Assembly: GCA_019637585.1 (NCBI GenBank)
Contig: JAHBVL010000002.1
Span: forward strand, 310,001-374,000
DNA from: Thermomicrobiales bacterium
GTDB taxonomy: Bacteria; Chloroflexota; Chloroflexia; Thermomicrobiales; UBA6265
Direction of reading: 5' to 3'
DNA: 64,000 nt
This document shows, piece by piece, positions 28,540 through 62,779 of this stretch (position 1 is its first letter; each line of letters opens with the position of its first letter). The position numbers and the translations under genes were made by a program. The notes under the pieces were generated by a model. That model was not told where the DNA came from. It was given only the letters and a program-made list of their open reading frames with translations, and did no database searches.

Positions 28540-29259
28540 CTACATTCTCATGACGACCGTTTTGAAGGCCTCGGCGAGTTCGAAGTCGACATCCTTCGCC
28601 ATTTCGGCGCAGCGCTCCCGAACCCGCGGGAAGACCTCCACGCCATCGCCGATCTGGGAGACATGCGCACACAGCGAATCGACCTTGTCGTCCCATGTGC
28701 CAGTGATATCGACGAAGAGATCCGGGTGCTCCGCGTTGAAGTACCAGATCTCGTTGACCTTGTGTGGCTCCAGTCCCTCTTCGAGATGCTCGGGAAAAAA
28801 GAGGGGATCGCGAGCGGAGGGATAAACCGCGTCATGGGCCGCAAGTCCAACACCACGATGGTCCGGATGGAACGCATACGCCCGGAAAGGATCGTGTGTG
28901 ATCAGCACATTCGGTTTGTGCCTACGGATCATCCGCACGATCTCACCTCGCAGCTCGAGATTCGGCTCGACCTCACCATCGGTCTTGTGAAGGAACTCGA
29001 CCGTTTTGACGCCCAGCCGCCGGGCGGCTTCTTCTTCTTCCTTTTCCCGCAGCGCAACCAGCTCCTGGGTGGTCAGGTCTCTGCGAGGGGTGCCCTTGTC
29101 GCCAGATGTCACCTGGACAATGGTCACTTCTCGTCCCGCTTTGACCAGACGGGCAATCGTCCCGCCCGATGAAAACTCCGCATCGTCCGGGTGCGCCACC
29201 ACCAGGAGATACCGGTCGTGTCCGTCCCAGGGCAATCGTTCTGACATTGTTGACGCCAT
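28540..29259 (-). CDS. PIG-L/LmbE-family deacetylase
   Basis: A 239-residue zinc-dependent N-deacetylase. Metal and catalytic residues are in VAHPDDAEFSSGGT and FHPDHRGVG, and ITHDPF is also conserved. Relatives deacetylate GlcNAc-linked small molecules: MshB for mycothiol, BshB for bacillithiol, PIG-L for GPI anchors. The window also has an MshC-like ligase at 55.6 kb, so a thiol cofactor role is worth considering, but LmbE homologues have many substrates. It lies between hisS and galK on one strand. Confidence 0.88.
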   Translation of the reverse strand: MASTMSERLPWDGHDRYLLVVAHPDDAEFSSGGTIARLVKAGREVTIVQVTSGDKGTPRRDLTTQELVALREKEEEEAARRLGVKTVEFLHKTDGEVEPNLELRGEIVRMIRRHKPNVLITHDPFRAYAFHPDHRGVGLAAHDAVYPSARDPLFFPEHLEEGLEPHKVNEIWYFNAEHPDLFVDITGTWDDKVDSLCAHVSQIGDGVEVFPRVRERCAEMAKDVDFELAEAFKTVVMRM

Positions 29260-55516: not shown

Positions 55517-55573
55517 CCGGCCTCGACGGCCTGTCAGTTTTTTCTCGCTACGTCACAAGGTGGAAGTGCGTCG

Positions 55574-56770
55574 ATGCGTCTCTACAATACCCAGTCTGGT
55601 GCAATCGAACCGGTTCGCATCGATGGGGATCCATTGGGCATGTACGTCTGTGGTGTCACTCCATATGACACGACGCATGCCGGACACGCGTTCAACTTTT
55701 TGACGTTCGACATCATCGCCCGTTTCGTCCGCTATCTCGGCGGCGAGATCACCTATGTCCAGAACGTCACCGATATCGACGACGACATCCTTCGCAAGTC
55801 GGCAGAGCTCGGCATGACCTGGCTGGAGCTCGGCGACCGCGAAACCGCCAAGTTCCGCAACGACATGCGAAACCTCAACGCACTCGATCCCGATCACTAC
55901 GTCCGGGCTACCGAGCACACCGTCGAGATGATCGAGCTGATCACCTCCCTGCTGGAGAAAAAGCTGGCCTACGAGTCGCAGGGAAGCGTCTACTTCGACG
56001 TGAACGCCGATCCGGATTTCGGCAAACTGAGCAAGATCCCGCGAGGAGAGATGCTCGCCGTCGCCAACGAGCGAGGCAACTATCCCGACGACCCCAAAAA
56101 GCGGCATCCGCTCGACTTCGTGCTCTGGCAGGCTGCGGCTCCGGGTGAGCCGACCTGGCCATCACCCTGGTCGGATGGGCGACCGGGCTGGCATATCGAG
56201 TGCAGCGCCATGGCCATCCGGTATCTCGGTCCGTCGATCGACATCCATGGCGGCGGTTCGGATCTGATCTTCCCGCATCATGAATGCGAGATCGCCCAGT
56301 CCGAGAACGCGACCGGCGTCACCCCGTTCAGCCGTCACTGGGTGCATGTGGGCATGGTCGGATACGAGGGTGAGAAGATGAGCAAATCGCTCGGCAATCT
56401 CATTCTCATCAGCGATCTGCTGGAAACGTATAGCTCCGACACCTTCCGCCTCTATGCGTTTTCCCATCACTACCGCGAGCCCTGGGAGTACATCGACGGC
56501 GAAATCGACGAATGGGTGACCACCGCGGAAGACATCGCCAACGCCGTGGCCCTGCCTGGGGATGGCATGGGCGATCACCTCGACGCTGTCCCCAGCCGTG
56601 AACGGTTCGTCAACGCGCTCTCCGACGATCTCAACACTGGGGAAGCCATCAAGGCGTTGACTGAATTGACCACGGATATCCTCCAGGCGGCGGATGACGA
56701 CGACATTTCCGATGCGCAGAACACCCTTCGTCAGCTCGGCGAGGTGCTCGGTCTGACGATGGAACGCTGA
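55574..56770 (+). CDS. Cysteinyl-tRNA synthetase-like / MshC-like cysteine ligase
   Basis: A 398-residue class I ligase. The zinc/cysteine site and HIGH motif read MYVCGVTPYDTTHAGHA, as in MshC rather than the CGPTVYD...HIGNA of typical CysS. RPGWHIECSAMA and FPHHECEIAQSE give the other zinc ligands, and the KMSKS loop is GEKMSKSLGN. The protein stops after a short helical DALR-type segment (VNALSDDLNTGEAIK), ~60 residues shorter than CysS, as MshC does. It either charges tRNA-Cys or joins cysteine to a glucosamine-inositol-like acceptor. ATG 55574. Confidence 0.75.
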   Translation: MRLYNTQSGAIEPVRIDGDPLGMYVCGVTPYDTTHAGHAFNFLTFDIIARFVRYLGGEITYVQNVTDIDDDILRKSAELGMTWLELGDRETAKFRNDMRNLNALDPDHYVRATEHTVEMIELITSLLEKKLAYESQGSVYFDVNADPDFGKLSKIPRGEMLAVANERGNYPDDPKKRHPLDFVLWQAAAPGEPTWPSPWSDGRPGWHIECSAMAIRYLGPSIDIHGGGSDLIFPHHECEIAQSENATGVTPFSRHWVHVGMVGYEGEKMSKSLGNLILISDLLETYSSDTFRLYAFSHHYREPWEYIDGEIDEWVTTAEDIANAVALPGDGMGDHLDAVPSRERFVNALSDDLNTGEAIKALTELTTDILQAADDDDISDAQNTLRQLGEVLGLTMER

Positions 56771-61038: not shown

Positions 61039-61098
61039 ACACCGACATCTCGTTGTTTGCCAGTTCGCTGGCAACAAACCCAGGACGGTTCTCGGATC

Positions 61099-61752
61099 AT
61101 GGCTAATGCGATAACTGTCTTCCGCGTCGGCATGCTCTTTGTGGCCGTCTACCTCCTCTATGAAGCCAGCTTGCCCTGGGTCGTCTTCGCCGCGGCAGTC
61201 ATTGCTATTGCCATCCTCCTCGATGGTCTCGACGGCTGGGTCGCCCGCCGGACGAACACGACATCGCAGCTGGGCGCCGCATTCGACATCGCCGGCGACC
61301 GGATTGTCGAGAACGTTCTCTGGGTGGTCTATGCCCACCTCGGTCTGATTCCCGTCTGGGTGCCACTCCTGGTGCTCACCCGAGGATTTCTGGTCGATTC
61401 GCTGCGGGCAATCTCCTATTCAGAAGGGAAAACCGCGTTCGGCAGCGACAACATGATGCGCTCACCGATCACCCAATGGCTGACGGCAGGACGGTTCATG
61501 CGGTCCCTTTTCGGTCTATCCAAGCTCTATGCGTTCGTTTTCCTGGCTGGACTCGTTGGCTACGAACAACGCGATGTGGCTGGCAGCGTGCTGGGCGATA
61601 TCTATGACTGGGATCCGTTCCGCTATTTCGGGTGGTTTACCGTGTGGCTGTCGGTTGCGCTGACGGTGATCCGGGGCGTGCCGGTTATCCTCGATTCGCT
61701 CTACACCTGGGGCCCAGACTGGATTCGCAAGACGCCAAGTCCGGAAGCATGA
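61099..61752 (+). CDS. CDP-alcohol phosphatidyltransferase family protein
   Basis: A 217-residue membrane enzyme. The family signature DG-x2-AR-x8-G-x3-D-x3-D is complete (DGWVARRTNTTSQLG, then AFDIAGDRI). The enzyme transfers a phosphatidyl group from CDP-diacylglycerol to an alcohol such as glycerol-phosphate or inositol-phosphate. The adjacency to an LpxL/PatA-like acyltransferase resembles the actinobacterial phosphatidylinositol cluster. ATG 61099; TTG/GTG options upstream are less likely. The acceptor is undecided. Confidence 0.87.
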   Translation: MANAITVFRVGMLFVAVYLLYEASLPWVVFAAAVIAIAILLDGLDGWVARRTNTTSQLGAAFDIAGDRIVENVLWVVYAHLGLIPVWVPLLVLTRGFLVDSLRAISYSEGKTAFGSDNMMRSPITQWLTAGRFMRSLFGLSKLYAFVFLAGLVGYEQRDVAGSVLGDIYDWDPFRYFGWFTVWLSVALTVIRGVPVILDSLYTWGPDWIRKTPSPEA

Positions 61753-61777
61753 GTATCGTCAACACGGAGTGGCGTTG

Positions 61778-62779
61778 ATGACAGACCAGACGCCACAACC
61801 GACCGATCAGCCGGAGACAACTCCGCTGACCCGATCCGCGCTTCCCCGGATCGAGTTCGGCAAGAGCAAGAGTGGCGACCGAATCTACTACTCCGCGGTC
61901 ATCCTGGCCTCGATTGCTTCGTGGGTGGCGGCGCTTCTTCCCCACTTCGTTCTGGTTCGCATTGTGGGATTGATCGGCTGGATCTCCGGAAAACGTCGAT
62001 CGACCTACCGGACCAACATCAGGTCGAACCTGGCGCATGTCACCGACCAGCCAGCCGAATCGCATCTGGTTTCGGATCTGGTCATGTCTGCGTTCAAGAC
62101 CAATGCGCTGAACGTCGCCGACCTGCTGGAAATCCCTCACCTCGATCTGGCCGATTTCGAGAAGCGCATCAATATCATCGAAGGCGGTTTTCGGCCGCTC
62201 GATGGCGCCCTGGCTGCGGGCAAGGGCGCCATTATCGTCACTGCGCACCTTGGGCCATTCGATTTCGTCGCCAGCTATCTGCGCGTCAGGGGCTACCCGC
62301 TGTCAGCGTTGACGGCCCGCACCACGGGTCGATTCGCCTTTCACTTCGTCACCTTTCTACGCAGTTCGCAGAATATGGGTGTCATCGAAACGTCATCAGC
62401 GGGTCTCCGCCAGGCGCTTCGACTGTTGCAGCGAGGTGAAATGCTGATCCTGCTCTCTGACCGCGACTTCTTCCTCAGCGGCCGGGAGACCGATTTCTTT
62501 GGCGAGAGGACATCGCTGCCGATCGGCGCCGTCCGCCTGGCGCGCGACACCGGCGTTCCGATCATCCCCTTCTTCGCCTACCGGGAAAAGAAACACTACG
62601 GTCTCGCGCTCGGCGACGCCATCTCGATTCCTCATACCGACGATCGTGACGCGGACCTCGATGCGGGAGTGAAGCTGGTGGCTCGCGAACTGGAGAGGGC
62701 CATCGGTCGTGCACCGGGGCAGTGGGTGCTCTTCCAGCAAGTCTGGCCAGACGACCCATCCGTGTCAGAGAAGGTGTAG
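61778..62779 (+). CDS. LpxL/PatA-like lysophospholipid or glycolipid acyltransferase
   Basis: A 333-residue membrane-associated acyltransferase of the HtrB/LpxL/PIM-acyltransferase family. It has an N-terminal amphipathic/hydrophobic segment, then IIVTAHLGPFDFVASYL with the catalytic H-x4-D, LSDRDFFLSG, and ERTSLPIGAVRLARDTGVPI. It probably acylates a glycolipid head group. GGAG precedes ATG 61778 by 8 bases, and the gene sits 25 bases behind the phosphatidyltransferase gene, indicating one operon. Confidence 0.87.
   Translation: MTDQTPQPTDQPETTPLTRSALPRIEFGKSKSGDRIYYSAVILASIASWVAALLPHFVLVRIVGLIGWISGKRRSTYRTNIRSNLAHVTDQPAESHLVSDLVMSAFKTNALNVADLLEIPHLDLADFEKRINIIEGGFRPLDGALAAGKGAIIVTAHLGPFDFVASYLRVRGYPLSALTARTTGRFAFHFVTFLRSSQNMGVIETSSAGLRQALRLLQRGEMLILLSDRDFFLSGRETDFFGERTSLPIGAVRLARDTGVPIIPFFAYREKKHYGLALGDAISIPHTDDRDADLDAGVKLVARELERAIGRAPGQWVLFQQVWPDDPSVSEKV

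Follow-up and report, generated by a model that had tools for sequence, protein, structure and literature searches.

A short cysteine ligase of the MshC clade in Chloroflexota and its possible role in the synthesis of a mycothiol-type thiol

A short cysteine ligase gene and its surroundings

The window analyzed here is a stretch of 64,000 nucleotides (G000:C12:310001-374000) from a Thermomicrobiales genome of 3.94 Mb that is 96.6% complete. On its forward strand, positions 55574-56770 hold an open reading frame of 398 amino acids with an ATG start codon, preceded by a Shine-Dalgarno-like AAGGTGG (55557-55563, read by eye) located 10 bases upstream of the ATG. Neighbouring genes are leuS (recognized by eye), a trehalose-phosphatase gene, rpsF and ssb. 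The encoded protein matches PF01406 with 346.9 bits and, in addition, part of DALR_2, Pfam-type profile matches that identify it as a class I cysteine-activating protein; over 55574-56770 (forward strand) it comprises the tRNA-synt_1e catalytic domain and the beginning of DALR_2, without an anticodon-binding domain. The segment CGVTPYDTTHAGHA (residues 26-39; 55649-55690) includes the first zinc-binding cysteine (C26) and the HIGH region in the form HAGH, and is followed on the same strand by an HHECE zinc motif (56276-56290), recognized by alignment with the HHENE of CysS, and by an intact KMSKS adenylation loop (56375-56389). In its sequence, the short ligase thus retains those parts of CysRS that bind zinc and carry out adenylation (C26, C210, H235, E239, KMSKS). 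Since 100 out of 120 genomes of the class (counted by hand) hold a match at E <= 1e-110, the open reading frame is not a product of chance and is confirmed as a real gene.

Scores alone would leave it open whether this protein belongs with MshC or with CysS. In comparisons with NCBIfam models, MshC ranked first with 387.7 bits and CysS second with 376.2 bits, the former score being below the cut-off of the MshC equivalog TIGR03447 (485.1 bits) and the latter above the cut-off of CysS TIGR00435 (340 bits). For comparison, the full-length CysS of the same genome reached 483 bits with the CysS model and 318.7 bits with the MshC model. Ten other copies from the class scored 358-400 bits for MshC and 367-415 bits for CysS; CysS was ranked over MshC in eight of them by E-value and in nine by bits, and MshC came first by E-value in two. 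The best sequence match in the PDB was Mycobacterium smegmatis MshC (323.2 bits), with Escherichia coli CysRS narrowly behind (320.3 bits), and a structure search did not separate MshC from CysRS either (Z 50.1 vs 50.5). Because the CysS cut-off is passed and the MshC cut-off is failed, annotation pipelines would miss the short ligase.

A structure model of the short ligase was predicted from 36 aligned rows (mean pLDDT 95.2). Aligned with E. coli CysRS (461 residues), it covers residues 2-397; aligned with M. smegmatis MshC, it covers residues 19-412, nearly the whole protein including its end. The C-terminal 64 residues of CysRS thus have no counterpart in the short ligase, which bears out the truncated C-terminus noted in a preliminary description of the locus. 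These missing residues correspond approximately to the anticodon domain.

A full-length CysS in the same genomes

The genome of the window encodes a separate CysS of 470 amino acids (from G000:C12:453665 onwards), flanked by cysE-like and rlmB-like genes that were named by eye from their translations. A third, weak homologue in this genome is, as judged by eye, a methionyl-tRNA synthetase-like frame. The 470-amino-acid CysS is therefore the one further close homologue, and the short gene is a paralog, neither the cell's CysS nor the only cysS in the genome. This situation is general among the genomes analyzed. A full-length CysS was found alongside the short copy in all 18 genomes of the class that were checked for both (20 loci of the class were fetched, the remaining two being the short copy itself), and also in all of the 11 genomes with a short copy that were accessed via their loci, a count that excludes Nocardia (which has MshC and CysS) and in which the full-length copy of the actinobacterial genome G123 was judged by a 474-residue open frame only.

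These counts bear on one of the two explanations offered in the preliminary description, namely that the clade uses a minimal CysS, taken here as a replacement of the normal enzyme. The length of the short protein and its annotation agree with such a replacement, at that level only; however, it is disfavoured because a full-length CysS is kept in every genome checked for both, the window's own genome included. For the latter it is already refuted unless the 470-amino-acid CysS is inactive, and overall we regard it as extremely improbable.

Two unusual arrangements were noticed among the loci. In an actinobacterial metagenome-assembled genome (G123:C31:135922-138375) the short ligase adjoins a CysS-like frame of full length, with L256 as a third copy located elsewhere. 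In addition, three genomes encode CysS-like frames of 715-728 amino acids (L267, L268, L270), which carry a long extension and have HHED[EL] as their zinc motif.

Phylogenetic position and diagnostic residues

A phylogenetic tree was calculated with a C20 mixture model from 91 rows and 399 columns, hand-picked from about 200 frames; near-duplicates, the 715-728-amino-acid frames, the fragment L271 and the third, 388-amino-acid copy in G123 were left out. MshC was represented by four rows (Nocardia, Tsukamurella, Corynebacterium striatum and Nonomuraea), two of them annotated as mshC in PLSDB and two placed by similarity. A branch with 100/100 support divides MshC and the short copies, which come from Actinomycetota, Chloroflexota and a single CPR bacterium, from all 35 full-length CysS, and a quick tree agrees with the C20 tree on this split. 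The short ligase thus does not branch within CysS, and the preliminary description of a MshC-like enzyme outside the Actinobacteria holds for this Chloroflexota genome. MshC itself is nested inside the short-copy side (starred nodes), where its sister group is formed by short copies of Acidimicrobiia and further Actinobacteria (100/99). An AU test rejected a grouping of the Chloroflexota short copies with Chloroflexota CysS (p 3.1e-5) but not a topology in which all non-actinobacterial short copies form one clade, as the sister group of MshC and its relatives (p 0.09). Taken together, the branch and the AU results make the ancestry shared with MshC firm, but not the nesting of MshC. On this phylogenetic evidence, independent truncation of a Chloroflexota CysS is rejected as the origin of the short copies.

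Several alignment positions follow the same division. An Arg-Gly insertion, seen in an alignment of short copies, MshC and CysS (Arg167-Gly168 of the window protein; 56072-56077, forward strand), shows Arg in 39 and Gly in 43 of 46 short copies, is present in all four MshC and is a gap in 33 to 34 of 35 CysS. Pro30 occurs in 46/46 short copies and 4/4 MshC, compared with 8/35 CysS. Lys185 of E. coli CysS, conserved in 35/35 CysS and corresponding to Gln186 of the window protein (56129-56131, forward strand), is replaced by Gln in 45/46 short copies and by Arg in all four MshC, and Lys73 (33/35 CysS; window site 71) by Asp or Pro in 45/46 short copies and by Pro in 4/4 MshC.

The zinc site is graded in a similar way. 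CysS has HHENE (Asn in 34/35), short copies have HHx[CS]E (Cys or Ser in 45/46), and of the four MshC, that of Nonomuraea has HHECG and the remaining ones HHE[YF]S. The Glu that serves as fourth zinc ligand (E239) is kept in 45/46 short copies and is Ser or Gly in 4/4 MshC. According to an excerpt of a study of MshC (PMC9736012), zinc is bound in MshC by three ligands from the protein (Cys, Cys, His), and the residues it describes as binding zinc or contacting the cysteinyl group align with Cys26, Thr29, Tyr31, Thr66, Cys210 and His235 of the window protein. These six are identical across the groups, except that Thr29 and Tyr31 each differ in a single CysS.

The short ligase thus resembles MshC in fold, length, lack of the anticodon domain, common branch, Arg-Gly insertion, a CG[IV]TPYD motif and the presence of an additional, full-length CysS in the genome. 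It differs from MshC in its score (387.7 bits against the cut-off given above), the retained zinc Glu, HHECE instead of HHE[YF]S, Gln instead of Arg at site 186 and a genome without a convincing MshD. With CysS (TIGR00435, PDB 1u0b) it shares the catalytic domain, the zinc ligands C, C, H and E, KMSKS and a score over the cut-off, but it lacks the last 64 residues as well as the conserved Lys73, Lys185 and Asn237 (the latter in 34/35 CysS) and falls outside the CysS branch. Because the zinc Glu lost in MshC is kept and the score lies under the NCBI cut-off, the short ligase is, by these sequence features, an MshC-clade enzyme and not an MshC equivalog. A parallel is provided by six ligases from Actinomycetota, Acidimicrobiia among them (L185, L194, L211, L213, L216, L238): they are likewise short, have HHECE, stay under the MshC cut-off (405-435 bits) and come from genomes that each have a full-length CysS, but they are closer to MshC in the tree (100/99).

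The mixture of features also invites comparison with specialised cysteinyl-tRNA synthetases. An excerpt of PMC9437257 describes, after Mukai 2017, CysRS* of Desulfobacterales, a CysRS paralog without an anticodon domain that is coupled to SelB*/SelC*. Compared by this description only, CysRS* is like the short ligase in lacking the anticodon domain and differs in its coupling to SelB*/SelC*. A specialised or backup cysteinyl-tRNA synthetase of this kind, charging a particular tRNA as CysRS* does with SelC*, would account for the score above the CysS cut-off and for the retained CysS zinc ligand. However, the short ligase groups with MshC and not with CysS, has lost two conserved CysS lysines, has the MshC insertion in common and, unlike a selenium-linked oddity, is near-universal in the class; we therefore consider such a role quite improbable.

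Distribution of the short copies

In addition to the 100 genomes of the class mentioned above, five more (family f7: G002, G008, G012, G016, G020) contain a frame that is about as short; for G002, G012 and G016 its assignment to the short clade comes from the tree, for G008 and G020 from open-frame length only. All aligned copies among L022-L051 and L108-L127 are 391-416 amino acids long. In a scan of the phylum with profile A1, 143 of 301 genomes matched, and the 20 regions outside the class that were fetched from those 143 yielded 18 short frames (380-429 amino acids) and three full-length ones. The figure of 143/301 was rejected as a clean count of short copies since some full-length CysS pass the profile (L311, 486 amino acids; L312, 452 amino acids). 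Among named records, short copies occur, for example, in Chloroflexi metagenome-assembled genomes, Thermobaculum, Acidimicrobiaceae, Ilumatobacteraceae and the CPR bacterium Candidatus Levybacteria. The latter (L164 in G127, MFNJ01000038.1) encodes a 410-amino-acid MshC-clade ligase and a 461-amino-acid CysS, and showed no MshA-like match at 1e-45.

Candidate partner genes

Genes similar to other components of mycothiol synthesis are present in the genome of the window. An MshA-like glycosyltransferase (G000:C12:117286-118491) scores 380.7 bits (cut-off 462.5), has Corynebacterium glutamicum MshA as its best PDB match and, at the six positions read, keeps the pattern M24, N25, K78, Y110, H133, T134 in the numbering of the MshA sites. 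Some relatives encode a second glycosyltransferase copy, in which sites 24, 110 and 134 are Q, F and A. Among the five PIG-L proteins of the genome, one (G000:C11:34870-35727) is MshB-like, with 142 bits (cut-off 224.35) and only MshB among its PDB matches at 1e-10. The preliminary description had pointed to an LmbE-type deacetylase within the window. Such a gene is indeed located there (PIG-L/LmbE, 28543-29259, reverse strand, 26 kb from the ligase), but as a link to mycothiol it is not supported: it scores best as BshB1-like, with 105.8 bits under the cut-off, vs 142 bits for the MshB-like PIG-L protein elsewhere, and was rejected as the best pathway deacetylase. An Ino1-type gene is found at G000:C28:162994-163320. 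No convincing MshD was detected in this genome, where the search gave only weak matches. Of mshA and mshD, which the preliminary description had named as genes to look for, the first thus has a counterpart, under the cut-off, and the second does not; that description as a whole is partly supported.

Within the class, an MshA-like gene was found at 1e-60 in 106 of 120 genomes, being absent from 10 of the 100 ligase carriers and present in 11 of the 15 genomes without a short copy. It also occurs in Dehalococcoidia-sized genomes where full-length CysS alone was seen, and the tree of MshA-like proteins is weakly resolved. Seven such small genomes, of family f21 (G140, G152, G161, G169, G177, G200, G228), have no short ligase, yet encode an MshA-like glycosyltransferase (299-349 bits). 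As the MshA-like gene is phylum-wide, MshA failed as a test of co-occurrence. MshD exceeded the curated cut-off in one of 120 genomes of the class (G012:C93:7816-8838, 206.7 bits), which also holds a short ligase (L294). Ino1, probed with PF01658, which finds C. glutamicum, was detected in 81 of 120 genomes of the class; PF07994 proved misleading as a probe (5/120) and also misses C. glutamicum at 1e-10. Within the window's own family, Ino1 is present in four and missing in 23 of 27 genomes. The MshA-like, MshB-like and Ino1 genes are scattered over the genome, and when the window and 20 further short-ligase loci were compared, along with 21 MshA loci, no conserved operon emerged, with no common neighbour beyond families present in five loci.

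Ino1 may serve inositol lipids, because the window holds a CDP-alcohol phosphatidyltransferase and a PatA-like acyltransferase gene. The two lie in tandem at 61057-62779; the best model for the acyltransferase is phosphatidylinositol mannoside acyltransferase, under cut-off, and the tandem is similar to the way in which an actinobacterial phosphatidylinositol mannoside operon begins.

A possible mycothiol-type thiol in Chloroflexota

Taking into account its ancestry, its truncation and the partner genes, the short ligase would most plausibly be a tRNA-independent cysteine:amino-sugar ligase of the MshC clade that serves the synthesis of a mycothiol-type thiol, a reading of activity and product to which we assign a probability of roughly 60%. 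Zinc would select L-cysteine, and ATP would yield Cys-AMP, which would then be attacked by the amino group of a small amino-sugar acceptor, not by a tRNA, giving an amide-linked Cys-glucosamine conjugate. The likeliest acceptor, and the least certain step, would be GlcN-inositol or a close relative, which might be built by the MshA-like glycosyltransferase from inositol phosphate supplied by Ino1 and deacetylated by the MshB-like PIG-L protein. As no convincing MshD was found, the pathway may end with unacetylated Cys-GlcN-Ins or with a thiol that carries a different cap. The same chemistry, cysteine onto glucosamine, is carried out in bacillithiol synthesis by BshC, a member of an unrelated family.

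Alternatively, the MshC-clade ligase might use another acceptor amine, for example of an amino-sugar, a polyamine, a lipid or a secondary-metabolite precursor, and its product would then not be of the mycothiol type. The zinc site and several residues that are unlike MshC are consistent with this, as are the lack of coupling between the MshA-like gene and the ligase, the absence of Ino1 from most of the window's family, the missing MshD, and the CPR genome with a ligase and no MshA-like match at the threshold given above. However, the actinobacterial HHECE copies, including the acidimicrobial ones, are sister to MshC, mycothiol-linked enzymes in Acidimicrobiia are mentioned in two papers, and MshA-like, MshB-like and Ino1 genes all occur in the window's genome, so that a different acceptor seems unlikely to us.

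Since the short copy groups with the mycothiol-making enzyme, the Chloroflexota carriers probably make an antioxidant related to mycothiol. Of the genomes analyzed, we take G040 to be Chloroflexus aurantiacus and G026 to be Sphaerobacter; G040 holds the short ligase, a full CysS, an MshA-like gene and Ino1. According to an excerpt of a commentary (PMC6336425), Chloroflexus aurantiacus was found to contain a novel thiol, which makes the mycothiol-type reading testable. With the conserved MshC-clade ligase, Chloroflexota have a named candidate gene for this thiol. In the open-licence PMC literature, we recognized no report of MshC or of the short-ligase clade in Chloroflexota. A 2018 genome survey, as far as its excerpt goes, found mshA-D in Actinobacteria only and stated that for numerous prokaryotes no low-molecular-weight thiol is known (PMC6282198).

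More broadly, and tentatively, with the balance slightly against it, mycothiol-type thiol synthesis might have begun outside the Actinobacteria. The MshC-clade ligase of Chloroflexota and of at least one CPR bacterium, often accompanied by MshA-like, MshB-like and Ino1 genes, would then make the C. aurantiacus thiol, and the zinc series HHENE, HHx[CS]E, HHECG, HHE[YF]S would record the step from synthetase to ligase. The short ligases would in that case be intermediates for the change of a tRNA synthetase into a small-molecule ligase. A further carrier is G038, Herpetosiphon aurantiacus with a chromosome of 6,346,587 bp according to an excerpt of PMC3368417, which holds the short ligase, an MshA-like gene and Ino1.
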